Origin: Mogibacterium sp.
GTDB taxonomy: Bacteria; Bacillota; Clostridia; Peptostreptococcales; Anaerovoracaceae
Direction: 5' to 3'
Length of the DNA: 59,822 bases
NCBI GenBank assembly: GCA_017432075.1
Contig: JAFRJV010000147.1
Coordinates: forward strand, 1 to 59,822
How positions within the stretch are numbered: the first letter of the stretch is position 1; the number at the start of each line of letters is the position of its first letter. The notes below the pieces were generated by a model. It saw nothing but the letters and a program-made list of their open reading frames with translations, ran no database searches and was not told where the DNA came from. The position numbers and the translations under genes were made by a program. This document shows positions 943 through 59,266 of this stretch, piece by piece.

Positions 943-3900
943 TTACTTTATTTTTACACCTTTTACTTTAGACCACTTGGATACATGCACCTGTCCGCCG
1001 GAGCTCTTGTAGGCTCGTATCCTGAAGTAGTATTTTTTCTTTGACTGCAGCTTCTTGATCTTTTTTGAAACTGCCTTTTTCTTCGCAGTCGTGGTCTTGA
1101 CTCCTGTCCTGAAGTTCTTGTCGAGACTGTACTGAATCTGGATTTTCCCGATCTTCTTCTGGTTCTTCGCAGAAACCTTCTTCCACTTGACAGTTGCTGA
1201 TTTCTTCGCAGCTGCCGGTTTGCTTATTTTTACAGCCGGCAGTGTTGGTGCGAGCATCGGGATCGTCCTTGTTTCATCATAGTCGCAGCTCATGCATGAG
1301 TTTACTTCTATGCCGGTAGATATTTCGGTTGCCGGCCTGACGATTTCCCATCCTCTGAATCTGTGTTTATGTACCGGCTGATCAGGATCGTCAGGATCAT
1401 CCGGGTCATAAGGATCATAAGGATCATAAGGATCGTCCGGGTCACCAGGGTTATCCGGGTCGGTGATCCCAAGCGCTTTCTCCACCGCCTCCAGCTTGTC
1501 AAGAGCTTCCTGGCTGATAAGCATCTTCTGATCTTCGCTCAGGGAGTCATATTTCTCTCTTGCTGCTTCTGCTGCTTCATATGCTTCGTCGTAATTATAG
1601 TCCGTTATGTCATTTACATCAGGAAGATCAGTTATCATGGCCTCAGCTGAATCTGCCTTCTTATTGGAAATAGCTATCGGTTCTTCTGTAGCTACCTCCC
1701 AGACTCTTAACGTTTCTGCATTGTTGCTCTCGTAATACTCTTCCGTATCCGTCGAGCAGTTTACTGTCAGAACAGTTCCGTCTCCGTCAAGGCTGACATC
1801 TCCGCCATCCACAGCGTACTTATATGTTTTAGTCTCACCCGCTCCGATCTCATCACTGTACTCCTGAAGGAGAGCGTCATCTTTGCCTGTGATGCTGGTC
1901 GTGGTATTTGCAGCAACTCTTCCCTTATTGGTTACAGTAACAAGTGCATATTTGCCTTCGTCACCGACAACATACTCGGTATCCACTGTAATGTCCGCTT
2001 TTCCGAGATCGATGTCTGCCATGTTGTCGTCCGTTGCCTGGACTGCACCCGGCTCAGTAATAGCCACGGTGTAGTCAGACGCATCAGCTCCATCCGGTAA
2101 AGTAAATGTGACTACCTCATCAGCACTCTCGCCCGGAGCCAGGTTTGCATTGATAGGCAGTGTCTGTATAGCCTCATCCGATCCCTTCTTATAAAGTGCA
2201 GCCTGAAGATCAGCTGCTTCGCTTGTACCGTTGTTGGTAAATGCCAGACGTACATCCAGATCATTTCCTTCGTTCAGATCCTCGAAGTCGAAGAGTGCGG
2301 TATCGAGTACAAGATTGTCACGGTTGATATCCTCACTGAACCTGATCACGGATTCAGTATCGAGTGTATCAAGATCGATATTGCTCTCCACGCAGATCAT
2401 CTTATCGCCTGCTATATCGAATCCGTCAATATAGGAGGACACTTCTGTGACAGGGATGCTGTTCCATGTCTCGCTTCCCTTTTCGAGACGCCAGATGTTA
2501 CGGTCTTCTCCTGTGCTCTTAAGGTAATAGATCTTATTGTCCGAAACGATGAACTTGCTGTAAAGGTCTGTCGTTCCTCCGGCTGCAAGTGCTTCAGCTT
2601 CCGTTTTGCCCTCTTTGATGCTCATTACTGCGCCGCTCAGGTTATACAGAAGGACCTTGTCCCCTCCCAGTTCTGTGAATACAGGATTTGAAATTTCACC
2701 CTCGGCAACGGCCTCGTCGCTTCCATTGACGATGTGCAGTTCCTTGCCTTCTGTTTCAAGGTTATTATCCTTATCGATAACATATGCGATCGAGCTCTCT
2801 CCGGAGCTGAGTCCTGTGATGCTCTTCAGATTGTCAGCAACCTCTTCCGGCTCTGTCCAGTCCGTACCGGTAAAGACAGATTTGTAAATAGTATTCTTTC
2901 CTTCTACACCGAAAATGTTGCCTGTGCTGTTCTCAGCCCACACGCACTCGAGGCCTTCGGAACCGGCTGCAACTGAAGGTGAGTAGCAGTATTTATCACC
3001 GCTGTCAGGTGAGCCAAGCGAAACAAAGCTATTTGAACCGGAATCATACCTTGCAACCGATACACCGAATGTCTTCGCATATTCTGTAAGATCAGGATCC
3101 ACTCCATCATCGAAAACAGTACGTGAATCCTGCCAGTACAGATAAAGTTCTCCGTCCTTTTCATAGAACGCAGGGTTCATGTCGGCTGTACCGTTGTCAA
3201 GAACAGCCTTCGCTGTCGAGAATCTGCCCGTGTCGCCGTCATATACTGCGTATTTGAGGACTGTACGGTTGGCTTCTGCTCTTGAGCTGTCGATATCAAG
3301 GAACGCGGCTACAGTGGTTCCTCCGGACTCCGCAATAACCGGAGATGCGCCCGGATATGAACCCGTGGCAAATGTGTCCCCGCTTCCAAGGCTTCGGAGC
3401 TGCTTTGCCGCAGACAGGTCACTTGTCTCGAAGTATTCATCCGGGTTCTTATAAAGATCCTGCTGAGCATCGCTGTATGACTTTGCAAACAGCCGCTTTT
3501 TAAGCAGCGAGCCGCCATCTCTTGCCCAGATCAGAAGTTCTCCGTCATCATTTATGTAAGGCGCGAGCGTCTTGCTTGTTTTCTTGAGGTCTTTCATGGA
3601 GAAGATCGCGGCCTTATACTCTTTCATCGCGACATAAGCCTTGCCGCCGACCTCTCCTGTCAGATAGAACTCCGTCGGACCTGTTTTCTCTTCCGGATCA
3701 GAGCTGAGCCACATGATGTTGACCCCGCTGGTTACATTGCCGTATACTCCGACGCTTATCCACTGGCCGACACCTACTCCGGCATATGGCTCAAGCGAGA
3801 GACTGAGCCCTGATGTTATATTTCCTGACAGCCCCGGGCCGTTAGCTGCAGTGAGGTTGAGAGTCGCACTTGCACCTATTGAAGCACTGGCGGATGCCTT

Positions 3901-6900
3901 GATGTTCACCGTAGCAGGCACAACAACTATGACTGTCTGCCCCTGGAATGTAGCGCTTCCGCTGATTATAACAATAAGACTGCCGCTTACGCTCTCAACA
4001 ACGTCGCTGTATTCGGTCTCAAAGTAACCCATCACAGAGACATTTGCACTCTTTTCCATGAACGGGATATCAGCCCCAAGGTCTGCCTGATCAAGGTAAC
4101 CTTTCATATCTTTAAGTATCAGACTCGTCTTATATTTGTCTTTCCGCCAGTCCTCCATCTGCTCTCCGATGGACTTTCGGTGAAAATCACTTGTAGTCAC
4201 ACCTTCTGTCGAATTTGACGAATACAGATTCTCCTGCTTTATATTCAGACCGAGCTTTACTTTACCGTCTTCTACTGCAACTGACATCGGAAATGAAGGG
4301 AAATCAAACTCTACTGTCCTTCCGCCGAATATCGGGATCTCATCATTAAGAGTCAGTGAGAACCCTGATCCGAGAAGTGTTATTGACTCAGGGAATTTCT
4401 TGCTCGGATCTTTAAAGTTCAGATAAAGACGATTCTTCATCGAACCTTTGACGCCTTTGACTACTACATATACCTTGGCACCGGCTTTGAACATCGACGG
4501 ATCGACTCCTGTAAATATGCCGTCCTTGCTCTCCTTTATCAGCTTACTGCCGGAATAAAGCATATATAAGCTGCCCGGAGTCTTGCTCCTGCAGATAAGG
4601 TCAAAAGGATTGTGCGTTGTCTCGATTGTATGCGCAGTTTTCAGCACATCGATCTGTTTCGGATCCTTCACATTGCCGTAACTGTATACCGCAGATTCAA
4701 GCGCAAGCTCTGCCGCTTCTCTCTCGTATTCCTTCGGCCCGCTCTGTCCGCCGACTGATAAGCTGTAATCATAAATGTATACACTGTCAGCTTTGTATTT
4801 TCCTCTGAGTGCCAGCGTCGGATAGCAGTTGGCCCGCTCACGGTAAAGTGTAGGTTGCTGACCTTGATAAAGGTATGTGAACTCGCCGTCTATGAGCACA
4901 TTACCATGATAATCTATTATTCCCGCTTCTCCACTTTCGTTCAAATAGATCACACCGGATTCCGTTTCACCGTTTTCGAAGTATGTAGCATTGTTGCGGA
5001 GATTTCCGGTAAAGCTGTACTTGCACGGCACTATCTCAGTGCCGTTGGAGGCCACCAGTCCCCAGTAATTATGCCCACTTCTTTTCTGCACTGCTACATA
5101 TGCGTCTTTGTACGGAAAATGATCTGTGATCCCTGCCTCGTTCAGAAATACTAAATCTGACCGATCGACGTACTTTTTCCCTCTGAAGTTCATAATATGA
5201 GTCTCTGAGTTGATGTAATCTCCATCAGAGTCGTAATTTATCTTCCGGGTGACGATTTTCATTGTATCACCGGATCTTACATCTTCCAGCGTAGCACCTT
5301 CATCGATTATTTCGAAATCAGAGTTGATGATCGTATCAGCTGTTGCTTCGTCATCGCCATACTGACCATTTTCTATCTGCCTCACCTGTGCTACCCAGCC
5401 CATATCATCAAATCTGAATAGATTATTAATAACTACTGAATCTCTTTCCGGATCAAATCCTGGCAGATCATATATGAAGTCTGAAAATCTTGTTGTTCCG
5501 GTCGCCAGGTCAACGATTCCGTATTTCCCCGGGTTATCATCTGACATCACGATCGCCAGGTCCCCATAAGTCTCCTGCGAGCTATTCTCAGCAACACCCT
5601 TTCCATATACCAGCTTCGATGCACCGCTGACGACCATTTTGTGGTCAATGTAGTTGTAGAGATAGTATGAATCTTCTGATGTTCTGCCTATAACATACTT
5701 TCCCCTGACATCGACGCTTTCAAAAAGGATACCACCAGAGACATCTTTATCGTTGTATTTAACTGTGTACCCGTCGAAGCCTTCGATGAGTATTTTTACA
5801 TCTTTATAATAGGATGCCTGGTCATAATAATCCTCGTAAGCCGGATCCCCCGAAGTATTTGAGTTAAATATAATAGGGAAGGTCTTGTTCTGATATTCTT
5901 CTGCTCCATCAGGTGACAGCCATATCATATCAACATCATATCCGTCTTCCCTATCTACGATCTTCTCCAGGGTATATCCATTAAAAAACTCGCTTCGCTC
6001 GGGATAATAACCGGGATATAACTTATTCAGGTCAAGTACTCCATCCTTGGATACAATATAGTTGCCGGATTCACTATACATATAATAATCGCCACCGTAG
6101 CTATAAAACTCCGTATCCGAATGGTCCACATAGTCATAATCATAATCAGTGATGAACTCTCCCGTTTCATAATTGAGATATGCTATCTTACTGCCATTTC
6201 CAACAGCAAAAACCAAATCGTTGGCACCAAAAGTATCCTCGCATTCAATAGGTTCGGACTTGCCGGCCATCCAGAGATAATAACCTCTGTCGTTTCTGCA
6301 TTCGATGCAATTATCGTTATCATCAATATCTGTATACTCAGCATCTGAGAGTACTGATCCATCGCTCTTCAGCAGGCCATACAGGTTATCCTTCCTATAA
6401 GTGAGAAACCCGTTCCTGACATAGTAAGAATTTGCATTGCTGTAGTAATTATAGATAGTGTCTGCAGCAAGCGGATAGTACTGATCAGTCGTTGCGTTGT
6501 ACAGATCATATTTATGAGTCTCAGTATTCTCAGGGTTCCTTATTAAATAGAGCTCATAAGGATAATACTCCAGGATTTCTTCGCAATAGTACGCAGTTAA
6601 AAGAGAAAAGCTTGCCGGATTATCCTTTGTTCCTCTGAAAGTTTTTACCAGCCCATGCTTGCTGACAAGGTAATACAGGATCTGATCGCTTTCAGTATCC
6701 TTTTTTGTGATCATCACACAGCCAGTGCCTAAATATTCATTTTCATAAGACTTGCCTTCCAAAAATTCGGCACTGTCGTCTGTCAGCTTCACCTCCAGGG
6801 CAGAGACATCCTCGTCCTCGACACCGTAATCAGTATCACGCAGAACAAAGGGAACTCCTGTCGGGTCAGGATCACTTACACCTGCTTCCGTATCATCGCT

Positions 6901-7008
6901 CTTGCTTTCCGCATAAGCCATACCATAATCCCCCCATGCAAAAGGCATATAGCTGAACACCATTGCAAGAGACATCATGATCGCAAATAATCTGCTGCGC
7001 ATTTTCAT
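943..7008 (-). CDS. Giant secreted protein: WG-like repeats, propeller-like region, two CARDB domains, helical repeat, CxxC knuckle and Fn3-like tail
   Basis: About 2,021 residues from MKMRSRLFAIMM. This ATG has a well placed GGAG; an in-frame start 69 bases upstream would put a charged stretch ahead of the signal peptide. Residues 1-31 are a signal peptide. About 45-900 holds WG/KWG-like units (GLLKSDGSVL, GLVASNGTEIVPCKY, GIIDYHGNVLIDGEF). About 1220-1520 resembles a sialidase-type propeller (AVYDGDTGRF, ELYLYWQDSR). About 1560-1760 holds two CARDB-like domains (FTNNGTSEAADLQ, VTNKGRVAANT). About 1786-1840 is a helical unit (LPDVNDI, YDSLSEDQK). An Asp-Pro-rich linker, a CxxC motif (CMSC) and a Fn3-like domain ending WSKVKGVKIK at the stop complete it. 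No LPXTG or SLH is visible. Likely a surface adhesin or scaffold; its ligand is unknown. Confidence 0.85.
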   Translation of the reverse strand: MKMRSRLFAIMMSLAMVFSYMPFAWGDYGMAYAESKSDDTEAGVSDPDPTGVPFVLRDTDYGVEDEDVSALEVKLTDDSAEFLEGKSYENEYLGTGCVMITKKDTESDQILYYLVSKHGLVKTFRGTKDNPASFSLLTAYYCEEILEYYPYELYLIRNPENTETHKYDLYNATTDQYYPLAADTIYNYYSNANSYYVRNGFLTYRKDNLYGLLKSDGSVLSDAEYTDIDDNDNCIECRNDRGYYLWMAGKSEPIECEDTFGANDLVFAVGNGSKIAYLNYETGEFITDYDYDYVDHSDTEFYSYGGDYYMYSESGNYIVSKDGVLDLNKLYPGYYPERSEFFNGYTLEKIVDREDGYDVDMIWLSPDGAEEYQNKTFPIIFNSNTSGDPAYEDYYDQASYYKDVKILIEGFDGYTVKYNDKDVSGGILFESVDVRGKYVIGRTSEDSYYLYNYIDHKMVVSGASKLVYGKGVAENSSQETYGDLAIVMSDDNPGKYGIVDLATGTTRFSDFIYDLPGFDPERDSVVINNLFRFDDMGWVAQVRQIENGQYGDDEATADTIINSDFEIIDEGATLEDVRSGDTMKIVTRKINYDSDGDYINSETHIMNFRGKKYVDRSDLVFLNEAGITDHFPYKDAYVAVQKRSGHNYWGLVASNGTEIVPCKYSFTGNLRNNATYFENGETESGVIYLNESGEAGIIDYHGNVLIDGEFTYLYQGQQPTLYRERANCYPTLALRGKYKADSVYIYDYSLSVGGQSGPKEYEREAAELALESAVYSYGNVKDPKQIDVLKTAHTIETTHNPFDLICRSKTPGSLYMLYSGSKLIKESKDGIFTGVDPSMFKAGAKVYVVVKGVKGSMKNRLYLNFKDPSKKFPESITLLGSGFSLTLNDEIPIFGGRTVEFDFPSFPMSVAVEDGKVKLGLNIKQENLYSSNSTEGVTTSDFHRKSIGEQMEDWRKDKYKTSLILKDMKGYLDQADLGADIPFMEKSANVSVMGYFETEYSDVVESVSGSLIVIISGSATFQGQTVIVVVPATVNIKASASASIGASATLNLTAANGPGLSGNITSGLSLSLEPYAGVGVGQWISVGVYGNVTSGVNIMWLSSDPEEKTGPTEFYLTGEVGGKAYVAMKEYKAAIFSMKDLKKTSKTLAPYINDDGELLIWARDGGSLLKKRLFAKSYSDAQQDLYKNPDEYFETSDLSAAKQLRSLGSGDTFATGSYPGASPVIAESGGTTVAAFLDIDSSRAEANRTVLKYAVYDGDTGRFSTAKAVLDNGTADMNPAFYEKDGELYLYWQDSRTVFDDGVDPDLTEYAKTFGVSVARYDSGSNSFVSLGSPDSGDKYCYSPSVAAGSEGLECVWAENSTGNIFGVEGKNTIYKSVFTGTDWTEPEEVADNLKSITGLSSGESSIAYVIDKDNNLETEGKELHIVNGSDEAVAEGEISNPVFTELGGDKVLLYNLSGAVMSIKEGKTEAEALAAGGTTDLYSKFIVSDNKIYYLKSTGEDRNIWRLEKGSETWNSIPVTEVSSYIDGFDIAGDKMICVESNIDLDTLDTESVIRFSEDINRDNLVLDTALFDFEDLNEGNDLDVRLAFTNNGTSEAADLQAALYKKGSDEAIQTLPINANLAPGESADEVVTFTLPDGADASDYTVAITEPGAVQATDDNMADIDLGKADITVDTEYVVGDEGKYALVTVTNKGRVAANTTTSITGKDDALLQEYSDEIGAGETKTYKYAVDGGDVSLDGDGTVLTVNCSTDTEEYYESNNAETLRVWEVATEEPIAISNKKADSAEAMITDLPDVNDITDYNYDEAYEAAEAAREKYDSLSEDQKMLISQEALDKLEAVEKALGITDPDNPGDPDDPYDPYDPYDPDDPDDPDQPVHKHRFRGWEIVRPATEISTGIEVNSCMSCDYDETRTIPMLAPTLPAVKISKPAAAKKSATVKWKKVSAKNQKKIGKIQIQYSLDKNFRTGVKTTTAKKKAVSKKIKKLQSKKKYYFRIRAYKSSGGQVHVSKWSKVKGVKIK
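1380..1466 (-). repeat. Codon-level Asp-Pro tract with 9-base repeats
   Basis: Inside the giant gene, the unit ggatcataa occurs three times in a row, flanked by diverged copies such as ggatcgtcc. It encodes a DPY/DPD linker between the helical unit and the CxxC-Fn3 tail. In-frame slippage here would change linker length without breaking the gene. Confidence 0.8.
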
Positions 7009-7108
7009 AACTGCTCCTTCAAAATCTTCTGAACAAAATAAAACGGGAGGTGCGCATTTTCTGCGCATAAGTTGCACTTATTATATCAGATATAACCTTC
7101 CCTTAGGC

Positions 7109-7146
7109 AAAAGAAAACAGGGTGCCCTGTATGGGTACCCTGTTGA
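7109..7146 (-). terminator. Terminator after the wall-binding-repeat protein
   Basis: Minus-strand stem AACAGGGT / ACCCTGTT (7137-7144 with 7116-7123) is followed by TTCTTTT. It lies about 40 bases after the stop at 7185 and before the start of the next gene. Confidence 0.8.
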
Positions 7147-7184
7147 ATCGGACTTCTTTCAGCCCGCTGATTTAATGTAATCGC

Positions 7185-11532: not shown

Positions 11533-12906
11533 CTATCTTGCCTTTGCCTTTTTGACCTTTGAAAAAGGTCCGTAATAAGTCTTACCGTTGACCGTCTTAA
11601 ATGCTCTTATCTTATAGCGGTATACCGTGCCCCTGCTGAGTCCTTTATGGGTCACGGATTTGACTGTTGCATTCTTTGTAACGGCTTTTACATATTTTTT
11701 CCTGCCGGGATATTTTAAATAAACGATATAGCCGTCGGCATTCAGCACCTTCTTCCATGTCAGCTTGTTTTTTCTGCCTCTCAATGCCCTGACCTTAAGG
11801 ACCGGCTTACCGAGAGCTTTTGCCGCGGCGATCTCTGCCTTCAGTGCGGCAGCTTTCTGCGCCTCTGCCGCCTGTGCAGCTTTTTCCGCCTCTATCCGTG
11901 CGGCTTCCTCAGCGGCATAATCACGCGCTGTTATGGTTATTGTGATCTCTGCCGGTCTGTATTCTCCTGACGGAAGAGCTGTTACCCTGATTCGAGCCGT
12001 TCCGGCCTGCGTGAATACCACATGCCCGTTCTGATCGACACTCGCGAAACTCCCGCTGACCACGGAATACTCGAGCCCGGTCATCGCCTGAAGATCAAGC
12101 TGCAGCCCGTCATGCCAGTCTATCGTGAACGGTCCAGCATCACCAGTTATCTGCTGATCGCTTCGTTGGTCTTCACCGGTCACATAGATCCTCTCAAGGA
12201 AATAACCCGCGTTATACCTGCCTCCGCCGTCATCGACATCAAAACGGACAAGTGTATTTCCGGCCGCTACCGGTGTGACCACCCCGTTCTGATCTACCAG
12301 CAACACATCCGTGTTGTCTGAAGTAAACTTCACACTTGCTCCCGGCCTCAGGGAAACCACCAGTTTCTGAGGGTCATCCGAAGTATCCAGATCGAGCCCC
12401 CATAGCGGAGACCTTCCTTCGTAGCAGACCGGATCAGTCTCGATCCATCCATTATGTTTGCCGACCGTTACCCCAAGGTACACGGTGCACTCTTTGTATT
12501 TTTCATCCGCCTTGATCGTTGCCTTTATCTCAGCCTTACCGGTTTTATGTATAGTCACATGGCCTTCACCATCCACTTCCAGCACATCGGGATTAAGTGA
12601 AGTCAGTGTGACATTGTTTTCCGTTACTCCATCTCCTTTCACCTGAATGACATGATCTGAATCGCACATCATCATTTCTGTCCCGTAATATGAAGGCTCC
12701 TGATAATATCCGATGTCATCCTTCTCAAGAGAGAAATGTTTGCCGATACAATCGGTGTATTCATATGTGAACCAGACCTGCCTGTCTGCAGGCTGATCAT
12801 TATCCGCGGCAAAAGCATTGCACGTCACCGCAAGGCATAATACGATCATCAGCAGTCCTGAAGCGGCTGCCGCAATGATTCTTTTTGTCAGAATTTCAGA
12901 TCGCAT
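11533..12906 (-). CDS. Secreted Ig-like (Big_2) protein with C-terminal Fn3-like tail, partner of the kinase
   Basis: 457 residues; GGAGGT five bases before the ATG. A signal peptide ends near AFAA (residue 34). Ig-like units follow, with the Big_2 signature of a value followed by a G-rich turn (VLEVDGEGHVTI, VLLVDQNGVVTPVAAGNT, SVDQNGHVVFTQAG). A helical Ala/Glu-rich spacer (about 330-365) leads to a Fn3-like domain with LTWKK, YKIRAF and the ending FSKVKKAKAR. It sits between the cytoplasmic gene at 12930 (23-base gap) and the kinase (6-base gap). The Ig-like domains are of the same type as those outside the kinase, so it may contact or compete with the kinase ectodomain; this is inference. 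Confidence 0.85.
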   Translation of the reverse strand: MRSEILTKRIIAAAASGLLMIVLCLAVTCNAFAADNDQPADRQVWFTYEYTDCIGKHFSLEKDDIGYYQEPSYYGTEMMMCDSDHVIQVKGDGVTENNVTLTSLNPDVLEVDGEGHVTIHKTGKAEIKATIKADEKYKECTVYLGVTVGKHNGWIETDPVCYEGRSPLWGLDLDTSDDPQKLVVSLRPGASVKFTSDNTDVLLVDQNGVVTPVAAGNTLVRFDVDDGGGRYNAGYFLERIYVTGEDQRSDQQITGDAGPFTIDWHDGLQLDLQAMTGLEYSVVSGSFASVDQNGHVVFTQAGTARIRVTALPSGEYRPAEITITITARDYAAEEAARIEAEKAAQAAEAQKAAALKAEIAAAKALGKPVLKVRALRGRKNKLTWKKVLNADGYIVYLKYPGRKKYVKAVTKNATVKSVTHKGLSRGTVYRYKIRAFKTVNGKTYYGPFSKVKKAKAR

Positions 12907-15321: not shown

Positions 15322-15345
15322 TTCAGCATAACCTCCCGGGCTCAT

Positions 15346-16284: not shown

Positions 16285-16382
16285 TGATCCTATCTTTAAA
16301 TGGGCAAATGCCTGATTTTCCGTTAGATTTCAGCTTGATAATTATATCAAAGGAAAATCATACACATCAAATTAATATCCCT

Positions 16383-16788: not shown

Positions 16789-16793
16789 TCTTA

Positions 16794-30043: not shown

Positions 30044-30154
30044 GTTTTCATCCCCCTGTAAGTAAAAACGCGTCATCTTATAAATTTGCTATTAGTATAT
30101 CTTATTAACAAACATTAAGGTAGGACTTTATAGAGAAAAGAAAACCGCAATAAA

Positions 30155-37550: not shown

Positions 37551-37590
37551 AACTAACTCTCCCGGTGTGATCATTTGTATAACTTTTGTT

Positions 37591-42100: not shown

Positions 42101-45100
42101 TAAACATTCTCGATCTTCGATTTTCCGATTTCTATGCCATTCTTTTCGTACTGGACTATGAAATAGAACGTGTACTCATCTGTGTCTTCATCATAATCAG
42201 AACCAGTACTCCATAAATACCAGCCGATTCCATCGCTGCCATTTTTGAAAGAGCCAGATGCTGAATCGTAAGTGTATGTAACACCATCGACTGCGACGCT
42301 GTCTCCGTCTTCAGGGAAATTCATCTCGCCTGACATTTCATCTCTGACGATCGTTCTTACACTGCCGTCTGCCTCAGGGTGAAGTGTCGTAACGATCTGG
42401 TCATCCGGTATATCCGGTCCATCTGATCCTTCTACGATCTTTACATAGATGCTGCATGTTGAGCCCATGTAGTACAGTGTGAACGGTCTTATGTCATTGA
42501 CGTACCATTCTTCTCCTTCACTCTGTTCTGAATCCCACCATACATCCCATGGAAGTACCAGAACATCATCCGGATCTTCTGTATTGACAAAGCGTTCTTC
42601 TGCGCCTTCATCAGTTTGTATACGTGCGAATTCATAGACGATATCACTGCCGTCTTTCTTTACAACAAGCCGGTCTCCATCCTCGAGAGGACATACGTAT
42701 TTGGTTACGCCATCCTCCTCGTATGAATAATCTCCGCCTTCTTTCAGTTCAATAGGATCGTCTTCACTGTATCCATCACGCTCGAAGGAAATGTTTTCAA
42801 CAGGATTTGCAACAGTAACAACACTTACCTCGCATGTCCTGCCGTTATAGTAAATGGTGCATACGTGCTCCTCACCGATGCCCCATGGCTCATCCTCGTC
42901 TTCCGGATCTTCTCCCCATGTTCCTATATTATCGTCGCGGATTGCCTTAGGCACGTCTTCCGGTACGTCTGAATACTCTTCGCTAAGTACAAATGCATCA
43001 GGCATACCATCATCCGAATATGTATAGATATAGTCGTACTCCGCATCTCCGTAGTTCACGGTGAGCACGTCGCCTTCTTTGAAGATCAGGTTGTATCTGA
43101 ATTGCTCATATTCTTCATCATACCAGCCATCGATCCGATCCATCAGTTCGACAGGATGCTCGTCATCGTACCCAGCTCTGGAGAACGAGATGCCTTTTAC
43201 CTGATTTTCCGCAAGCGTTACAGGAACTGTATACTCATGACCGCTGAAATACAGTTCGAACGAGTAACCTTCACCGTCTGCCGTCCAGTGTGTTTCCCAC
43301 TGCCGCGGCTGGGCTTTCGTACTGATCCTGTAAGTCTCGATGTAGTCATCATCAACGAATTCACCGGTTCCCGCGGCATCTCTCCTTACAAATCTATCGA
43401 CCCAATCGCCTTCGTCATCCTCCGGAACCGCTTCATACCATTTCACTTTACCGTCAGGACCGGTCACTACCAGCTGGTCCCCCGGTTTGAAATAGAGATT
43501 GTACCAGAAGAATTCTTCACCATCGTCATCCGTATCGTAATCACCGTCGACCCCTTCCGTCAGTACGACTCCGCCGCTTCGCTCAAATATGAAGGAGCTC
43601 ACAGGATTCTGCAACATGGTGACAGGTATAGGCTCTGATACTACTCCCATATACTCGACAGTAAACCAGTGCTCTTTACCATCATTGTATTTCCACTCTG
43701 TTGCTTTGCTCTGCGGGTCACTGTCACGACCCAGGTCACGGTAGTAGAGGCAATCAGTTTTGTCCGCTGTATTTACGAACTTGAAGGTACTGTCTCCTGA
43801 ACCTTCTTCTTCCTCCTCTTCGCCGACATATACTTTTTCTACAGGATCTTCGTTTTCATCCTCCTGTACTGTAATTGTCAGCGTGTCTCCTTTACGGAAT
43901 TCAAGCCAGTATTCCATGAAGTTGCCGTCTGCGCCATCGGAATTGGCTCCATCGGTTCCCTCTGTGAGCACCACTCCGCCTTCTCTCTGGAATGATACGC
44001 TTTTTACAGGGTTTGCAACGACCTTGTAATAAACTGTTGTTTCATGGCCGGCAATCATCACCGTGGCTTTGTGCGGCTCTGCATCGTTGATTATCCAGCC
44101 GTTCTCACATTCTGTCTGGTCATCTATGACCTGCGGCCAGTATTCAAGGAAATTGCTGTCACTATCGCAAAATTCGCAGTAATAATCATCAAACGTGAAG
44201 GTTTTTTCTGTTCCGTCTGTGTAGTGAACTACCACGGCATCTCCGGCTTTAAAACTATCCAGCTCATAGTAATAGTATTCAATGCCTTCATGATCATCCC
44301 AGTATCCACCGTTATTTTCTATAAGCTGTATAGGGTTTTCCTTAGTTCCACGACCGTTGGTTCCGTAGAATTCTACCTTTGAAATGCTTTCATCTATATA
44401 TACGAACTCAGAGTATCCGCTTGCCAGCCAGCCGGAGCCTCCATCAACGATCACGCCTGCAAAGAAACTGATACGTCTTCCGTAATCACTATCTTCAGTA
44501 TTGATTGCCTCACCGACAGCCGGTCCGTGGAGAGTAAGCGTCATCGTATCCCTGTCAAAGTCGTATTCCTTTCCTTCAGTGAAGTCTAAGACCCAACCAT
44601 GATCTCCTTCATCAGGCTCATATGTGTTGATACCAACTCTCAAATCGAGTTCGCATCCTTCAGGAACAACAGCTTCTTCAGGAAGCGTGAATACTGCATC
44701 CCCGTTTGAAAAGATATAATCCGGTCCGGACCATTCATATTCAGCGTCCTCATCATCGTCGTCGTCACCGGCTTCGCCGTAGTCGTAGGCAGACATCTCA
44801 AGGTCTTCGTATTCATACTGAGCAATTGTCTCAGGATCATACTGATAAAGGAGTTCATCATTATAAACGTATCCGTCATCCACGGATCCGTATGAATATC
44901 CCTTCAGGAACAGGTAATCCGGATATCCTTCCTCCGGATTATCATTGTCGCAGTTCGTGATATCTGCAATATAGTTTCTTCCATCGTCCATGTGGAGAAT
45001 ATTCCACATATGGCCTTCAGTCTCACCGCCGTCACTCATCATTTCGCCTGTAACGGTATTGCAATCGATCTGTGAGCTGGCAAAGCCCGACTTGTCGCAC

Positions 45101-47766: not shown

Positions 47767-47852
47767 AGATATACACATATTAGCACAAAAGGCCAATCAG
47801 TAAGACGAAATCATAAAAACTTTGCACATTCAGTCGAGATCTGTCCCCACTC

Positions 47853-52017: not shown

Positions 52018-52821
52018 CTATTTAACTTTTCCTGATTTTACTTTTGACCAGCTGCCATATACTTTAACGTCTGTTACTTTCTTATAAGCGCGTACTCTGA
52101 CATAGTAGCGGCCTTTCTTCTTGAGCTTGATCGTCTTGTTGAGTGTGCTGCCCTTCTTTACTGTGACAGTCTTGACGCCGGTCTTAAAGCTTTGATCTTT
52201 TGAGCACTGGATCTGATATCCGGCTGCGCCGGCAGACTTTTTCCACTTTACAGCTAAAGCCTTCTTTTTGCCTTTGACACTCTTGAGAACTGTTTTTCCT
52301 GCCCCCGGAGAGTTCGCTCCCACTACCTTGAGCATATATGCACCGCTTTTAAATGCATCAAGTCTTATGCCTACCTTGACATTCTTCTTATAGCTGTCGA
52401 GCGATACTGTTCCTATGTACCATCCGCTTGCATCAGGATGTACAGAAATGTAATCTATTGAATGGATGCTGCTGGCGCCCCACTGGAACCTCGGAGGGTC
52501 TCCCCCTGCAGCGCTGAATTTCGCGAAGGTGCTGTAACTGATTTCTACCGCCATGGCAAGATCATCCTCCCAGCCATACGGATCAGTAATCGGTGTTTGG
52601 GTATATACCATCAAATTATAAGCTCCTCCACCTGAAATGAAGGTATAAGTATCACTGTCGTTATTGCTCTCAAATGTTCCCTCAACCATTGTATTCGGTG
52701 TGATATTCGGCGTCTTTTTGTCGAAATAATTGCTTACATCTGCCGCAAATGTCAGCTGCACCGATGTAAGTGTGAACACAAGCGCCAATAACACTGTTAA
52801 TAACCGGCTTCTCTTCTTCAT
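52018..52821 (-). CDS. Small secreted protein with PPC-like domain and Fn3-like tail
   Basis: 267 residues; GAGGAGGG ahead of the ATG. Signal peptide to about 27 (FAA). Residues 30-165 look like a pre-peptidase C-type beta domain (GTFESNNDSDTYTF, GAYMLKVVGA near its end). The rest is the Fn3-like tail: LAVKWKK, YQIQCSKDQSF, YYVRVRAY and the ending WSKVKSGKVK. It is the smallest protein with the shared tail, and the simplest to test for what the tail does. It starts 37 bases after the CAP gene stop, so the two may be co-transcribed. Confidence 0.85.
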   Translation of the reverse strand: MKKRSRLLTVLLALVFTLTSVQLTFAADVSNYFDKKTPNITPNTMVEGTFESNNDSDTYTFISGGGAYNLMVYTQTPITDPYGWEDDLAMAVEISYSTFAKFSAAGGDPPRFQWGASSIHSIDYISVHPDASGWYIGTVSLDSYKKNVKVGIRLDAFKSGAYMLKVVGANSPGAGKTVLKSVKGKKKALAVKWKKSAGAAGYQIQCSKDQSFKTGVKTVTVKKGSTLNKTIKLKKKGRYYVRVRAYKKVTDVKVYGSWSKVKSGKVK

Positions 52822-53896: not shown

Positions 53897-55648
53897 TTAT
53901 TTGATCTTTGCCTTCTTGACAGCACTCCACTTGGATACGTGAGTCGCACCACCTGCATTGGTGTATGCGCGAATCCTGATATAGTATGTCTTCTTGGACT
54001 TGAGGCCTTTGATCTTCAGGGAAGACTTTTTAGCCGCGGCATATTTGGTCTTGACGTCTGTACTGAAAGACTTGTCAAGGCTATACTGAATCTCAATTTT
54101 CTTGACTTTTTTAAGGTTCTTCTTCGCTACTTTCTTCCATTTTACTGTGGCAGACTTCTTTGCTGCTGCAGGCTTTGCGATCTTCACAGCAGGGAGTGTC
54201 GGTGCAAGCGTTGCGATCGCTCTCATCTCAGAAACTCCGCAAACCGAACATTTTCTCGTCTGTACACCGGCCAAAGTCTCTGTTGCAGCCGCGGTCGTTG
54301 TCCACTCGCCAAATGTGTGGCCATCTGCGCACGGATCTACTACCGGCGGATCATCCGGATCACTGCCCTCGTCTTTCTTAACATGCAGATAATCATTATC
54401 ATCGACGTAAAGCACATACCCTGCAGGTATATACACATCTATCTTACATGTCGATACTCTTTTTTCCGTATCACTTGCATCTGCTATGTTGAAAGTGTAA
54501 TTGACCTTGTAATTTTTTTCGCCCTCTGCAAGGGTCAGCTCCTCTTCTTCTTCACTCAGTGTTGAGCTTTTATATTTTGTCTGATATTTGCCGAAATTCA
54601 TATCAACGAGCCTCGGGTTGTAATACTGAACCGGAACGCTCGATATTGTATTCAGATATGACGTATAGCGGAGCCAATGATTTTCACTCTCTCCGGATAC
54701 GCTCCATGTATACGGCTTACTGAGATTGCCAACTGTATACATATTCCAGCCGTCAGTTCCATCTACAGGATTAGTGACACCGGAAGCAGTCTTTTCATAT
54801 TCCCATGTGCCAAGAGTTCCGTTCCCACAATAATTTTGTGGAGTATCTGACACCATGACGTAATCATCTTCCTGGGTATTACTGCTTTTAGCATACAGAT
54901 AATAAGTCTCTCCCGGCTCTGCAGGGTACGTCACAATAGCATCATAATTAATCGCATCGACTACATATCCTTCACTGTCAAGCAGCTTGACCCATGTGGT
55001 TATGATCGGTCTGTCGACCATGATGCGATTTGAAGCGACATGGAATTTGACCCACTGGCTTGTCCCTGCCGGCAGCTTGTAGCTGTAGCACGGAACTCCC
55101 ATATCTTCGCCTTCTTCAACGCTCTTATACCAGTCGTCTGCATAGACATTTGAAAGATCGATCTCCTTAGCATCTGCAGGGATTTCTTCCTTCTGTCTCT
55201 CCTGTACTTTTATAAGATCCAGCTTCTCATACGTTCCGTGATACGGATCAACGCCTTCAACCTTACAGAAGTACACTCCTGTTTCCGTCGGGAACTCAGT
55301 CAGCCAGTTATTCTCATCGATTTTTTCCCATGCATTCTTCTCTTTGTTAAACTGACACTCACAATAAGATGCGGTATAGCAATCACTATCCAGTTTAGAA
55401 CCTTCGGTGTCAAATACATAAAGATCAAGAACTTTACCTTTGGTAACTACATAGAAATAGTCCGGATATGGTGTCGATTCAATATCATCCAATACACGAT
55501 ACTCATCATCAAAGCTAACATCAAAGTTGCTGATATCATTATCATCCGCTGCATGCACCGGCTCCGCATTGGCTGCAAACATGCCAAGCACCAGCAGCAA
55601 AGATAACATCAGAGACAGCAAGCCTCCTCTCCTCGCCTGGATCTTCAT
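53897..55648 (-). CDS. Secreted beta-rich protein with CxxC knuckle and Fn3-like tail
   Basis: 583 residues; AAGGAGG ahead of the ATG. Signal peptide ends near VHA (33). The body is rich in Tyr, Asp and Glu with beta-type strands. The middle resembles a pre-peptidase C-like domain (QWVKFHVASNRI, GETYYLYAKSS). No enzyme motif is visible. After a DPDDPP linker come HTFGEW, a CxxC (CSVCG) and the Fn3-like tail ending WSAVKKAKIK. The tail DNA is closely similar to that of the 55736 gene, 1.8 kb away, in the same orientation. Function unknown; likely surface-located. Confidence 0.83.
   Translation of the reverse strand: MKIQARRGGLLSLMLSLLLVLGMFAANAEPVHAADDNDISNFDVSFDDEYRVLDDIESTPYPDYFYVVTKGKVLDLYVFDTEGSKLDSDCYTASYCECQFNKEKNAWEKIDENNWLTEFPTETGVYFCKVEGVDPYHGTYEKLDLIKVQERQKEEIPADAKEIDLSNVYADDWYKSVEEGEDMGVPCYSYKLPAGTSQWVKFHVASNRIMVDRPIITTWVKLLDSEGYVVDAINYDAIVTYPAEPGETYYLYAKSSNTQEDDYVMVSDTPQNYCGNGTLGTWEYEKTASGVTNPVDGTDGWNMYTVGNLSKPYTWSVSGESENHWLRYTSYLNTISSVPVQYYNPRLVDMNFGKYQTKYKSSTLSEEEEELTLAEGEKNYKVNYTFNIADASDTEKRVSTCKIDVYIPAGYVLYVDDNDYLHVKKDEGSDPDDPPVVDPCADGHTFGEWTTTAAATETLAGVQTRKCSVCGVSEMRAIATLAPTLPAVKIAKPAAAKKSATVKWKKVAKKNLKKVKKIEIQYSLDKSFSTDVKTKYAAAKKSSLKIKGLKSKKTYYIRIRAYTNAGGATHVSKWSAVKKAKIK
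53918..54205 (-). repeat. Direct repeat, copy 1: DNA for the CxxC-Fn3 tail
   Basis: Closely matches 55756-56050, with identical runs of 26 and 33 bases. More diverged copies lie at 955-1250 and 18515-18800. It encodes the tail of the 53897 protein. Confidence 0.8.
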
Positions 55649-55735: not shown

Positions 55736-58700
55736 TCAGCGGATCTTTGCCTTTTTGGTGCTGCTCCACTTGGATACGTGGATCACACCACCTGCATTGG
55801 TGTACGCGCGGATCCTGACATAATATGTCTTTTTGGACTTGAGGCCTTTGATCTTCAGTGAAGTCTTTTTCGCAGGGGGATATTTGGTTTTGACGCCTGT
55901 ACTGAAATTCTTGTCAAGACTGTACTGGATCTCTATTTTCTTTATTTTTTTAAGGTTCTTCTTCGCTACTTTCTTCCACGTTACTGTGACAGACTTCTTT
56001 GCCGCCTTAAGTTTTGCCAGCTTGACTGCTTTAAGTGTAGGCGGCAGCATCGGAATTACTGCCTCTTCGGTCAGTCCGCATATATTGCAGCTCCTGACCT
56101 TTTTACCGGTGGAAATTTCTGTTGCGGCTGTTGTGATCTTCCAGTCGAAATTGTGGTGCTCACATTTAGCAAACCTTGCCTCAACATCGGTATCCTTTGT
56201 CACCTTTATTCTGATGGAAAGACCATCTTCAGATATATCATTTGTGCACTTCTCACCATCAATATAGAAACCATCGAAGATGTAGCCGGCATTGCAGGCT
56301 GCTTCGAGGCTTGCAAATGAGCCTTCAGTGAAGGAGCCTCCGCCCAAGACGATTCCTGCTGTTTCATCGTAAGAAGCAGATACTGTATATGTATGCGCAG
56401 CGATCTCGTCTTCTCCGCGCAGATCAGCCTCAACAGGCACCTCTCCGCCGTCTTTGTTGAGTGTATAATCAACACTGCTGCCTTCTGATGCTCCCTCAGT
56501 AAGCTCTGTATCAGAGAATGCTGAAACGTCAGCAGACAATGCCTTATCGGCTTCAAGCGGAACGGTTTCGAAAGCAGTGACTCTCGAAGGTTCGCCAAAT
56601 TCTGCATCATACTCTTCTACACCGCAGGATACTTCGCTGTCTTCTCTGGCAACTACCTCCACCCGGTAATCGCTGTCTACAGGCAGATACGCAATCTTCT
56701 GCCCGTTCTCATCAATGCTGACTATTATTTCCTGATTCTCTTCATCCGACGGCACTTCGTTTACTATAGAAGCTATTACATTATTACTTGCATCATATAC
56801 ATAAAGATCGACCGGGCAGTTTGCCTTGAACACTCTGTAGTTCTCATTTCCCCAGGCCTCCGGGAGCGAAAGCTTATAATTAGGGTCCATCAGCTGCATC
56901 CATGCAATATAGTATTCCTGATCGGCGTGAGGTTCGATGAGTGTTGCTCTATTCTTTTGCAGAGTTACGGTCAGATGCGGATGAAGCTCTACAAATTCCG
57001 GCACGATCTCTACTGCATTTATCAGTACTTCAGCTATATTAAAACTATAGTTATCATTCATAACTTTCGCCAAAGTATCAGACAGAGTTGACTGATAGTA
57101 TGTACTGTACTGCTTTCTGTCTCCAATTGCATTAGCTAATGACTTAACTGATTTTCTTAAAACAGTTCCCTGAGTATCGTGATTGAACGGATCTTTTATT
57201 GCAACTAATTCATTTATTACTATTTTATTAATTACTCCTGTCGGTGCTACCGATTTATAGTTTGTAAATTTAGATATGTTATAACCTTTTCCATTGTTAA
57301 GTCTGGTCGCAACTCTATCAATATATTGGTTATAGGCATTGTTGCTCTCTTTATATATAAACACTTTGGTTGTTCCATACCTGTCACACTTCCATTTTCC
57401 AGGTGCGACCAGCGGGACCGGATCATTGTACTCTATTACATTCCAGATATTATTGTACTTGGAACTATGCGGATCGCTGCTGAAGTCCGCACCTGCAGGG
57501 GTTGCAAAACCGTATGCGTAAATCGACTCCTTATCCATATTGACTGTGTTGTAGCCAGTTTCACTATCATCATCTTCGTATGCAAATGAGGATACGTCAT
57601 TCAGTTTTGCGGCCGTTTGAGTTGCTACAGCACCGGCTCTGCTGAAACCTGTGATCCATACCTTAACATCACCCTTGATTTTGTTTGTTGTAATATATGA
57701 TATTATGCTTCTTTTAACATCTTCCGCACTGCTGTCAAATCCATAATGGTCACCTGAAAGACCAATAGTAAAATTGCTCTTCCATTCGTACTCATATCCT
57801 CCGCCTCTTACAGCTACAGCTATTACAGTTGTCGGATTTCCGTCTACTTTGATTGATTTGCTGCCTATAACATAGCCAATAGAATTTTCGGTAGGCTTTT
57901 TGTTAAAATTGTACTCCTTATACCTGCCGTTCTTTGCAAATCCGCATTCTGTCATCAGACGTTTAACATGTTTGTCATAGTATGAATAATCAGTGCTTTT
58001 TGTGTTCTCCTTGAGTCCATATGCAGTGAATGCCATACATAAACTCATAGTAGCAAGGCTCTGATTATACTCTGTTGCAGGTTTATAAAAGTAAGAGTCC
58101 TTATAATAATAGCCTTTGTCTCCGGTAAATCCTCTCGGTACTATCAGTTTTAGTTTTCCGGATTCCACTTCTTCTGTAGTATAGAAATCATTGTGAACTT
58201 CCATTGGAGGTTCATCATCCGGATCAATACTCATATCTGTAACGTAGACCCTGTAATCCGCAGATGGTATTTTTGTTCCTGCCGTGTATTCCTCTCCGGT
58301 TTCCTTGTCATACATAGTCACAGGAAACTCCGCTTCGCTACACGTGTTAAAGCCCTTACCGCCTTTTAGTACGGTCAATGAATAACATCCTTCGAACGTC
58401 TCGAACATATCTTCAGTATTACTGGTATCGAAACTGGACAGATCCAAAGTGGTCAGATTGCTGCACTCATCAAACAAAAGGCTCATGTCTGAAACATTTC
58501 TCGTATCCCAGCCTGTTAAATCTATGGATTTAAGGTTGATACACATAACAAACATCCCTTGCATGTCCGTGACTTTGCTTGTATCCCAGCCTGACAGATC
58601 CATGCTTGTCACACTTTCGCATCTTTGGAACATACCGCTTATATCTGTAACATTGCTTGTATTGAAATCGCTAACATCTATGTCAGCCAGTTTTCTGCAT

Positions 58701-59266
58701 TGTATAAACATGCCGGATATATCGGTAGCTTTACTTGTATCAAAGCCGGAAATGTTCAGCTTTTTCAGCTGGAATCCCCCGGCAAACATACCGGAAAAGT
58801 CTGTGACTTTACTTGTATTGAAGCCGGAAAGGTCCAATTCAGTCAGGATTCTGCAGCCGCAGAACATGTCGTACATGTCTGTCACATTACTAGTATCCAG
58901 TCCTGAAACATCAATACTGGTAACAACTTGCAGATCCCAGAACATTTCTCCAAGACTTCCGTTACCATGTACTATGCCTGCAATTCTGGCTTTTTTGATC
59001 TGTTGTCTGTATTCAGCCCAAGGATAATCCAGATCTCTGCGCTCTTCTTTGTAAGCGTAGGTATATTCCTTTCCCTGTTCTCCGATTATCAGTTCATAAT
59101 CACCGGTGACCTTCCATGGAACGCCATCATAATTGCCGGATGCGATGTCATCCGCTGCATGCACTGCCAGCGGGATGTTAAACGCTAAGTAGCTTACAGG
59201 AAGTCCTGTAATAATCATCATCGCGATGATTATTATTGAAATAATACGGTTTCGTAAAGCCTTCAT
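55736..59266 (-). CDS. Large surface protein: DUF285-type repeats, lipase-like domain, InlB-like unit, CxxC knuckle and Fn3-like tail
   Basis: About 1,176 residues from MKALRNRIISI; AAGGAG lies seven bases upstream of this ATG, while earlier in-frame Mets sit on or before the site. Signal peptide to about 37. Residues 85-295 hold about eight DUF285/BspA-like units of 24-25 residues (LDTSNVTDMYDMF, FNTSKVTDFSGMF, WDTSKVTDMQGMF). About 390-680 is a lipase-like alpha/beta hydrolase: S542 in the atypical elbow GFSRAG, with the neighbouring EWKSNFTIGLSGDHYGF shared with the other two lipase-like giants. An InlB-like unit (about 960-1030), CNICG and the Fn3-like tail ending WSSTKKAKIR complete it. 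Because the elbow is changed from GHSRG, substrate or activity may differ. Confidence 0.86.
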   Translation of the reverse strand: MKALRNRIISIIIIAMMIITGLPVSYLAFNIPLAVHAADDIASGNYDGVPWKVTGDYELIIGEQGKEYTYAYKEERRDLDYPWAEYRQQIKKARIAGIVHGNGSLGEMFWDLQVVTSIDVSGLDTSNVTDMYDMFCGCRILTELDLSGFNTSKVTDFSGMFAGGFQLKKLNISGFDTSKATDISGMFIQCRKLADIDVSDFNTSNVTDISGMFQRCESVTSMDLSGWDTSKVTDMQGMFVMCINLKSIDLTGWDTRNVSDMSLLFDECSNLTTLDLSSFDTSNTEDMFETFEGCYSLTVLKGGKGFNTCSEAEFPVTMYDKETGEEYTAGTKIPSADYRVYVTDMSIDPDDEPPMEVHNDFYTTEEVESGKLKLIVPRGFTGDKGYYYKDSYFYKPATEYNQSLATMSLCMAFTAYGLKENTKSTDYSYYDKHVKRLMTECGFAKNGRYKEYNFNKKPTENSIGYVIGSKSIKVDGNPTTVIAVAVRGGGYEYEWKSNFTIGLSGDHYGFDSSAEDVKRSIISYITTNKIKGDVKVWITGFSRAGAVATQTAAKLNDVSSFAYEDDDSETGYNTVNMDKESIYAYGFATPAGADFSSDPHSSKYNNIWNVIEYNDPVPLVAPGKWKCDRYGTTKVFIYKESNNAYNQYIDRVATRLNNGKGYNISKFTNYKSVAPTGVINKIVINELVAIKDPFNHDTQGTVLRKSVKSLANAIGDRKQYSTYYQSTLSDTLAKVMNDNYSFNIAEVLINAVEIVPEFVELHPHLTVTLQKNRATLIEPHADQEYYIAWMQLMDPNYKLSLPEAWGNENYRVFKANCPVDLYVYDASNNVIASIVNEVPSDEENQEIIVSIDENGQKIAYLPVDSDYRVEVVAREDSEVSCGVEEYDAEFGEPSRVTAFETVPLEADKALSADVSAFSDTELTEGASEGSSVDYTLNKDGGEVPVEADLRGEDEIAAHTYTVSASYDETAGIVLGGGSFTEGSFASLEAACNAGYIFDGFYIDGEKCTNDISEDGLSIRIKVTKDTDVEARFAKCEHHNFDWKITTAATEISTGKKVRSCNICGLTEEAVIPMLPPTLKAVKLAKLKAAKKSVTVTWKKVAKKNLKKIKKIEIQYSLDKNFSTGVKTKYPPAKKTSLKIKGLKSKKTYYVRIRAYTNAGGVIHVSKWSSTKKAKIR
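55756..56050 (-). repeat. Direct repeat, copy 2: DNA for the CxxC-Fn3 tail
   Basis: Counterpart of 53918-54205 in the same orientation; recombination between the two would delete about 1.85 kb and join the 55736 body to the 53897 tail in frame. Confidence 0.8.

Follow-up and report, generated by a model that had tools for sequence, protein, structure and literature searches.

The window and its eight basic C-terminal domains

The window, the whole stretch of 59,822 nucleotides that was analysed, encodes eight proteins that end in a related domain, as an earlier note on this DNA had claimed. The stop codon follows the domain directly in seven of them and after one extra K in p39187 (proteins are named here by their first coordinate). 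The positions of these tails and of associated features are given in Table 1. A ninth window protein, p15346, is a contrast case, its related basic Fn3-like domain being non-terminal and not a tail. The host assembly contains 19 matches to the tail profile, 8 of them inside the window.

Table 1. Positions of the basic Fn3 tails and associated features in the window.
Feature	Position	Strand	Support
Basic Fn3 tail, C-terminal, 2044-aa protein 943..7077	946..1260	-	profile E 7.9e-44
Basic Fn3 tail, C-terminal, 457-aa Big_2 protein 11533..12906; most divergent member	11536..11826	-	profile E 8.5e-27
Basic Fn3 tail, C-terminal, 1781-aa Flg_new/MucBP protein 18501..23846	18504..18818	-	profile + Pfam
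Basic Fn3 tail, C-terminal, 2453-aa lipase/LRR_5 protein 30213..37574; Ala-rich stretch precedes	30216..30527	-	
Basic Fn3 tail, C-terminal, 2370-aa LRR_5 protein 39187..46299; Ala-rich stretch precedes	39190..39501	-	
Basic Fn3 tail, C-terminal, 267-aa protein 52018..52821	52021..52308	-	profile + Pfam
Basic Fn3 tail, C-terminal, 583-aa protein 53897..55648	53900..54214	-	profile + Pfam
Basic Fn3 tail, C-terminal, 1187-aa DUF285/lipase protein 55736..59299	55739..56053	-	profile + Pfam
CxxC (CMSC), residue 1928, ahead of tail in protein 943..7077	1285..1296	-	
CxxC (CKVC), residue 1665, ahead of tail in protein 18501..23846	18843..18854	-	
CxxC (CSVC), residue 467, ahead of tail in protein 53897..55648	54239..54250	-	
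CxxC (CNIC), residue 1071, ahead of tail in protein 55736..59299	56078..56089	-	
Distantly related basic Fn3-like domain, N-terminal to Amidase_3 of protein 15346..16284	15892..16152	-	18.7 bits

All eight tails are linked by composition-adjusted BLASTP of tail against protein and represent one homologous, Lys-rich domain of Fn3 type, p11533 being the weakest link (pairwise E-values 1e-5 to 0.02). Each tail scored between 25.0 and 142.0 bits against a leave-one-out profile of the other seven. Chance or composition as the source of the similarity was rejected, as 500 composition-preserving shuffles per tail gave at most 14.7 bits; for p11533, the tail scored 25.0 bits and its own shuffles no more than 14.7. 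Searched at full length, all eight proteins matched Pfam family PF00041 at E ≤0.0065, as for a divergent Fn3; three (p18501, p53897 and p55736) exceeded the Pfam gathering cut-off, and six of the eight domains exceeded it in the genome search. The best solved-structure matches of the tail profile were Fn3 chains (titin, fibronectin, IL-6 receptor beta). In the tail alignment, conservation covers the full Fn3 domain, not a short motif, and no residues lie beyond the last strand. An NCBIfam scan of 31 tails gave weak matches to five families (best E 0.0004), none of them relevant, and literature searches, with most subscription papers outside what was searchable, returned no description of the tail.

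The motifs originally reported for the tails hold in most members. The ending [WF]S-x-x-K-x-x-K-x-K is exact in six of the eight, but p11533 and p55736 have a terminal R. The strand given as VKWKK or LTWKK reads LTWKK in p11533, but VKWTK in p39187 and VTWKK in p55736. All four proteins said to share a CxxC unit and the phrase PTLPAVKI do have the CxxC; the phrase is exact in three, p55736 having PTLKAVKL. The CxxC was considered as a part of the tail module and rejected, since only these four of the eight have it ahead of the tail and since further CxxC motifs inside p30213, p39187, p18501 and p943 mean that it is not tail-specific. The assertion that the N-terminal architectures differ completely had to be dropped, Lipase_3 being common to p30213 and p55736 and LRR_5 to p30213 and p39187.

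Charge and passengers

Acidic residues are rare in most columns of the tail alignment and the Lys content is extreme; the basic columns with the strongest conservation are 19, 28, 80, 82, 100, 103 and 105. Net charge per 100 residues averages +25 in the tails and -5 in the rest of the proteins, and the final residue is K or R in 119 of 129 terminal tails. Using gene and signal-peptide calls that are crude heuristics, the last 100 residues were at +10 or above in 112 of 113 tail genes; the corresponding counts were 21 among 128 signal-bearing genes that have no tail, 4 among 297 genes without a signal and 5 among 162 membrane genes. With only 21/128 for the non-tail signal-bearing genes, basic C-termini are not a general rule for secreted proteins. 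In several of those 21 the basic C-terminus belongs to a beta or LRR domain that is unrelated to the tail. Very basic Fn3 domains are also found internally, at +29 to +30, in L195, L197 and L200.

The passengers carried by the tail are unrelated, 42 Pfam families being found on 91 of them. Wall-acting families are present (GH25 on 8/91, CHAP on 1/91 and LytR_cpsA_psr on 1/91) and adhesin-like passengers with LRR_5 or Big_2 are many. For several tail carriers the record title mentions the gut of sheep, goat or deer. Glyphos_transf genes lie directly 3' of tail genes in genome G014, and likewise in G009 with a caveat as to the frame, and occur in only 4 of 113 sources. Tails are more alike within a genome (mean identity 0.417) than between genomes (0.357), and the nearest neighbour of a tail was in the same genome in 42 of 125 cases, as against a mean of 10 and a maximum of 24 in 500 label shuffles.

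The tail is terminal across the genus and beyond

A check for terminal bias using a profile of the tail showed a strong one, with 129 of 133 genus matches in the fetched stretches ending within 5 residues of the stop at a threshold of 29 bits, which was our choice; 8 of the 129 had trained the profile. The 133 matches came from 100 stretches around the stronger among the matches listed and from 12 host stretches, those weaker than about 1e-10 being largely omitted. Two of 15 further matches below 29 bits were terminal. Kinship among the genomes is as assigned by the analysis tool; the family may, at a guess, be Anaerovoracaceae. The four exceptions were L110 twice (412 and 9 residues after the match), L159 once and L160 once. 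Both L110 copies are without the final strand, and one frame there carries on through a glycerophosphotransferase gene, which may reflect a gene fusion or an error in the frame.

The 30 best PF00041 matches in five genus genomes, a selection that is independent of the tail profile though many of the genes are the same as among the 133, gave a similar picture. Of those reaching at least 29 bits on the tail profile 15/16 were terminal, as against 1/14 of the others (Fisher p 2.4e-6), 'terminal' here meaning that the Pfam match, which does not include the last strand, ends 8–24 residues before the stop. Internal copies are thus not as frequent as terminal ones. As for cytoplasmic occurrence, a crude heuristic classed 108 of the 114 tail proteins whose frame is complete at the 5' end as apparently exported.

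At the named loci 25 of 27 matches were terminal, the misses being L017 (103 residues after) and L020 (its frame extends past the edge of the locus). Stretches from two of the genomes to which such loci belong gave 22 of 28; one of the six misses ends 6 residues short, three are penultimate copies with a terminal tail also present, and the remaining two are both copies in L307, a protein without a terminal tail. Matches per genome reach 47, with one tail each in G002, G015 and G023 among the matches listed. Eubacterium uniforme also carries the tail, its cultured strain ATCC 35992 giving 27 profile matches.

Searching with the p52018 tail (tblastn) gave no match in phages or plasmids. In viral_contigs 14 loci were obtained, the best match exceeding 45 bits in six (L315, L316, L317, L318, L323 and L325), all of them terminal, and the weaker loci being mostly neutral internal Fn3s. 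L316 encodes a Phage_lysozyme2 protein with a terminal tail. Phage lysins with a tail were considered as proof of wall targeting, but this argument is weakened as the viral_contigs carriers may be cellular.

Other anchoring routes

The statement that the eight proteins show neither LPXTG nor SLH was borne out, with no LPxTG string in any of them and no Pfam match to SLH or Gram_pos_anchor at E 0.01. Both routes were therefore rejected as the true means of anchoring for these proteins. PF00746 (LPXTG) had no match in the host assembly at E 0.001. Sortase was found in 11/11 genus genomes tested, including the tail-less G005. LPXTG signals are few in these genomes, G015 having 5 LPXTG-type matches and one tail among the matches listed, and SLH was found in a single one of the 52 genomes, the tail-bearing G129.

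CWB2 and SH3-like domains in place of the tail

G005 is a near-complete member of the genus in which no tail was found among the matches listed and which has 39 matches to CW_binding_2 (CWB2), a domain known to anchor proteins non-covalently to the wall. By comparison of the sequences, the C-terminal tail is replaced in this sister genome by the recognised wall-binding CWB2 block. Thirteen CWB2 proteins were examined in seven G005 stretches, and the block is C-terminal in 12. The N-sides of eight of the 13 match tail passengers in BLAST, some over short repeats only. Pfam confirms a C-terminal CWB2 on a G005 subtilase and on a G005 GH25 lysozyme, families that are capped by the tail elsewhere. 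CWB2 was absent from 34/34 tail-bearing genomes, and PF04122 had no match in the eight window proteins or in the host assembly. The contrast within the genus is drawn from one genome, G005; G001, which is 74% complete, has neither CWB2 nor, among the matches listed, a tail. In an order sample of 158 genomes the tail (E 1e-12) occurred in 16, CWB2 (E 1e-8) in 31 and both in none, a hypergeometric p of 0.025 that ignores phylogeny, CWB2 being concentrated in other families.

A second exchange was seen in lysozymes. Two of these are 65% identical over 392 residues (54% identity when the host's own copy is compared) and then diverge, one into a tail and the other into a domain that we read as SH3-like; of two copies scanned with Pfam, one gave a sub-threshold SH3_3 match (E 0.0083) and the other none. 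Among 29 GH25 frames from nine genomes, only three have the tail at their end. Five lysozyme orthologues retain the SH3-like domain, and several tails are present in four of those genomes.

Discussion

The tail probably holds unrelated secreted proteins to the negatively charged cell wall. We infer a wall-retention function because CWB2 and the SH3-like domain substitute for the tail. The reading that we favour, and hold to be reasonably likely, is that the tail, built on an Fn3 scaffold, is a portable module for the C-terminus, which would retain proteins on the wall non-covalently by binding an anionic wall polymer. The passenger would be exported first, as the predicted signal peptides suggest, with the cationic Fn3 as the last folded domain, and the tail would then hold the mostly acidic passenger on the bacterium's own wall. 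A teichoic-acid-like ligand is a guess. The tail would thereby take the position of the CWB2 blocks in a close relative and of the SH3-like domain in orthologous lysozymes. Between the two roles proposed in the earlier note, the terminal bias and the replacement by CWB2 or an SH3-like domain favour surface retention, while an export machine found no support.

Fn3 domains can act as plain spacers. The tails might be ordinary spacers of this kind, stable beta-sandwiches passed from one surface gene to another by recombination at the 3' end, with Lys-richness a general style of the secreted beta-domains of these bacteria and no specific ligand. The tail does match PF00041 as well as Fn3 chains whose structures are solved, other secreted proteins also end in unrelated basic domains (the 21/128 above), and the within-genome resemblance of tails is as expected from recombination. 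However, spacers sit between domains whereas the tails end at the stop codon, the tail-like Fn3s differ in position from the other Fn3s of the same genomes, and CWB2 replaces the tail on the same kinds of passenger; we regard this explanation as unlikely. It is distinctly unlikely that the tail is an adhesion domain, its charge binding host mucin, glycosaminoglycans, DNA or plant fibre instead of the bacterium's own wall. The many adhesin-like passengers and the gut origins in the record titles are in keeping with adhesion, as is CBM37 of Ruminococcus albus, a module often found with LRRs and implicated in fibre adherence in the accessible part of the source (PMC4300822), but wall hydrolases are among the passengers and the domains that substitute for the tail, CWB2 and the SH3-like domain, speak against it. 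A cationic module could bind both the own wall and adhesion targets.

Machine-read C-terminal signals include the type IX secretion domains and the rhombosortase/exosortase-type tails. A sorting signal of this sort, recognised by an export or attachment machine of its own that joins the protein to the surface, would account for the extreme terminal position, the diversity of passengers and the K or R as last residue, yet it is very improbable here. The last strand is followed by nothing that could be cleaved off, and what is conserved is an entire Fn3 domain, not a short motif. Sortase is found in genomes with and without the tail, the exchange of the tail for a binding block calls for no machine, and a non-exhaustive search found no co-occurring machine or partner gene.

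A wall-retention module of the kind favoured above would resemble several known systems in part. Like the CWB2 domain (PF04122) of the Clostridioides difficile Cwp proteins, it would be a portable wall module on many exoproteins, and the CWB2 ligand is, in the available text of Willing 2015, the anionic wall polymer PSII (PMC4973711). CWB2 acts, however, as three tandem repeats of a fold other than Fn3, as described in the accessible portion of a further source (PMC5842191), whereas the tail is a single Fn3 domain, so that the likeness would be one of working only. The C-terminal domain of Lactobacillus SlpA resembles the tail in its charge, teichoic acids being bound by an extensive positive region, but it consists of two SlpA motifs (IPR024968) and is described, as far as the available text goes, for S-layer proteins and not for many unrelated proteins (PMC11181022). 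The SlpA family had no Pfam match in the eight proteins at E 0.01. CBM37 is reportedly a cell-surface attachment module, this being the title claim of Ezer in 2008. Like the tail, it is found on many proteins that a gut Clostridium secretes, LRRs often accompanying it (PMC4300822), but it is a carbohydrate-binding module family of its own, set apart from the tail by description only. The tail belongs to PF00041 by profile and differs from typical members in its extreme Lys content, its few acidic residues and its C-terminal seat ending in K or R. That it constitutes an undescribed class of wall anchor, a single cationic Fn3 at the extreme C-terminus in gut Clostridia of more than one family, reading an anionic wall polymer and exchanged with CWB2 and SH3-type anchors, so that this one domain would label a large part of the surface proteins of these mostly uncultured bacteria, is a tentative proposal, to which we give somewhat less than even weight.

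The near absence of SLH and the scarcity of LPXTG raise the question of how most exoproteins stay on the cell. The cultured Eubacterium uniforme ATCC 35992 makes a direct test of the tail possible. If the tail is a wall anchor, then a very common fold, Fn3, has been recruited for charge-based wall anchoring, a single profile would place many proteins of each genome at the cell surface, as many as the 47 matches found, and the surface proteome of uncultured gut bacteria could in large part be predicted.

The tail as a member of the Fn3 family

The host assembly amounts to 2.75 Mb in 160 contigs, is rated 83% complete and includes the window as contig C68. Homology searches confirmed the observation in the earlier note that all eight named window proteins end in one common Lys-rich domain of about 100 residues. 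Leave-one-out profiles scored the tails at 25.0–142.0 bits, against no more than 14.7 bits for shuffled copies, so the homology exceeds an effect of composition. Judged from sequence, the tail is a divergent member of the Fn3 family. A Pfam scan of the whole proteins matched PF00041 in all eight, three of them above its cut-off, and when the genome was searched six of the eight domains were above it. The solved structures matched by a profile of 31 tails include Fn3 chains of titin, fibronectin and IL-6 receptor beta. The scans made gave no specific Pfam or NCBIfam model for the tail.

Terminal position of the tail

The terminal bias that the earlier note had proposed to check was counted in the window and 112 fetched genus stretches using A1, the profile built on the tails, with a threshold of at least 29 bits. 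The match lay at the C-terminus in 129 of 133 proteins, including the 8 tails used as the profile training set; the stop codon was at most 5 residues away in these 129 and at most 1 residue away in 126. The last residue was K or R in 119 of the 129 terminal tails. The exceptions were in L110 (two), L159 (one) and L160 (one). The tail was also terminal in 25/27 matches at named loci, in 9/10 matches in stretches of Eubacterium uniforme, in 13/18 matches in stretches of genome G046 and in the six loci above 45 bits from viral_contigs. Three of the non-terminal copies in the E. uniforme and G046 stretches were penultimate and less basic, on proteins which themselves end in a tail.

Given that A1 was itself derived from terminal domains, a control blind to the tail was taken, namely the 30 best PF00041 matches from five genus genomes chosen regardless of the tail. 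The domain was terminal in 15 of the 16 scoring at least 29 bits on A1 versus 1 of the 14 others (Fisher p 2.4e-6), many of these genes overlapping the set of 133. Basicity alone does not fix the position, since the Fn3 domains of L195, L197 and L200 have net charges of +29 to +30 and are internal.

Charge pattern

Lys makes up 24% of the tails on average, and their mean net charge is +25 per 100 residues, against -5 for the remainder of the same proteins. When the last 100 residues were scored in 700 genes, using crude gene and signal sorting, a charge of +10 or more was found in 112/113 tail genes versus 21/128 other signal-bearing genes, 4/297 signal-less genes and 5/162 membrane genes. In an alignment of 154 tails acidic residues are scarce in most columns, the main exceptions being columns 41 (39%) and 47 (31%), with a few others at 11–22%; columns 19, 28, 80, 82, 100, 103 and 105 are more than 80% basic. 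The charge is thus distributed over the whole domain, and a handful of basic positions are nearly invariant. Other Lys-rich proteins were also seen (Table), and the ends of those in L082 and L121 are possibly a second basic tail type.

Passengers and gene neighbourhood

Pfam was run on the 91 shorter of 125 eligible passengers (the rest of the tail-bearing protein), on six of the 34 longer ones separately and on the long window proteins whole. The 91 passengers contained 42 families; among the 25 listed were GH25 (8), subtilase (7), Big_2 (7), LRR_5 (6) and transglutaminase (4), with CAP, CHAP, LytR_cpsA_psr, CotH, Lectin_like and others as single cases. A crude signal-peptide test was passed by 108 of the 114 tail proteins whose frame is complete at the 5' end; among the six that failed, L152 at least has a visible signal peptide at a more internal position.

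In two genus members tail genes are immediately followed by Glyphos_transf genes (Table), and such genes also occur within L160 and L181; with 4/113 sources this neighbourhood is suggestive only.

Table. Coordinates of neighbouring genes and of other features observed
Source	Position	Strand	Feature
L110 (G009)	15088-17611		Two Glyphos_transf regions, following two tail genes; the first is in-frame with the second tail gene
L100 (G014)	5327-8689		Two Glyphos_transf genes, following a tail gene, with a candidate glycerophosphodiesterase ORF between them
Window	46453-47796	-	Gene of the O-antigen ligase family (Wzy_C) amid surface-protein genes
Window	24545-30076	-	1843-aa Big_2/VWA/Lipase_3 protein without tail; Lipase_3 proteins 30213 and 55736 have the tail
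Window	16794-18347	-	517-aa secreted protein; K/W/V/Y low-complexity stretch close to end; last 100 residues net +38; no Pfam match
Window	7185-9083	-	632-aa secreted protein; Lys-rich YY/NG-type repeats recalling choline-binding repeats; no Pfam match; similar protein in L114
L082	1799-3202	+	Secreted; C-terminus of another Lys-rich type, LRR-like and by eye not related to Fn3
L121			926-aa gene, as L082
Window	15346-16284	-	Amidase-type protein; weak Fn3-like match before amidase part, not terminal
L148	from 7038	+	As preceding, second species
L017	4397	+	Non-terminal domain resembling the tail (57.7 bits), followed by 103 residues; record titled Coriobacteriaceae, which if correct places it beyond Clostridia

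Distribution and substitution by other anchors

The host assembly has 19 A1 matches. At E 1e-4 a match was found in 22/24 genus genomes, host included, and in 1/16 other genomes of the order, this one being an internal low-scoring Fn3 domain (L068, 19.1 bits). Copy number is uneven across the genus, from 32 in G008 to one each in G002, G015 and G023. At E 1e-12 the tail was present in 16 of 158 genomes sampled from the order, every one from the same family. The twelve genomes behind the named loci all contain the tail (6 to 47 matches each), having been picked since one of their loci already matched it. One of the twelve, E. uniforme ATCC 35992, assigned by NCBI to Eubacteriaceae, has 27 matches.

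The near-complete genus member G005 (99%) has no tail match and 39 matches to CWB2 (CW_binding_2, PF04122), a known non-covalent wall anchor. A profile search of 52 genomes found CWB2 in four, G005 and three from other families, none of them among the 34 that have the tail; 14 of the 18 tail-less genomes, G001 included, also lack it. In the order sample the tail (16/158) and CWB2 (31/158) never co-occur (hypergeometric p 0.025, not corrected for phylogeny), and within the family CWB2 is found in G005, G074 and G094, each tail-less. Seven G005 stretches gave 13 CWB2 proteins. The CWB2 block ends at most 16 residues from the C-terminus in 12 of these, and the N-side of eight has BLAST matches to tail passengers, some over short or repeated segments only. 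Pfam confirmed CWB2 on one subtilase, two papain/Lectin_like proteins and the GH25 lysozyme L262; subtilase, GH25 and Lectin_like are common to both sets.

Among 29 GH25 frames from nine genomes, three end in the tail (L259, L267, L269), one in CWB2 (L262) and five in what we read as an SH3-like domain (L246, L248, L256, L260, L263), the rest having neither; of the two SH3-like cases scanned, Pfam placed SH3_3 below cut-off in L256 (E 0.0083) and gave no such match in L263. The tail-bearing L259 (G023) is 65% identical to L256 (G016) over 392 residues, as far as the last domain, and 54% identical to L263 of the host.

SLH was found in 1/52 genomes (G129) and Gram_pos_anchor in 29/52 with 1–8 matches each, the genome profile search finding none in the host assembly; sortase was detected in all 11 genus genomes tested. 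LPXTG anchoring therefore exists in the group. It is usually rarer in copy than the tail in tail-rich genomes; Gram_pos_anchor matches outnumber the tails in G015 (5 versus a single tail) and in G174 (8 versus 3 tails at E 1e-12).

Possible role of the tail

Fn3 is a common fold, and wall modules that bind non-covalently belong to an established kind; the literature searched gave no description of Fn3 in a wall-retention role with a fixed C-terminal seat. The CWB2 ligand is described as the anionic polymer PSII (PMC4973711), and an account of Lactobacillus SlpA has its strongly positive C-terminal domain bind teichoic acids (PMC11181022). One caution is that L. brevis SlpA binds the wall through a positively charged region reported to work without teichoic acid (PMC2571106). 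The nearest neighbour of a tail came from the same genome in 42/125 cases (shuffled mean 10, maximum 24), a likeness which fits either co-adaptation to a single ligand or recombination of gene ends. From its position, its charge and its substitution by wall modules, we infer that the tail, which the earlier note held to be a candidate surface-retention or export module, is a putative retention module binding a wall polymer. The folded cationic tail would bind an anionic polymer of the cell's own wall, and this binding would keep the passenger on the cell.
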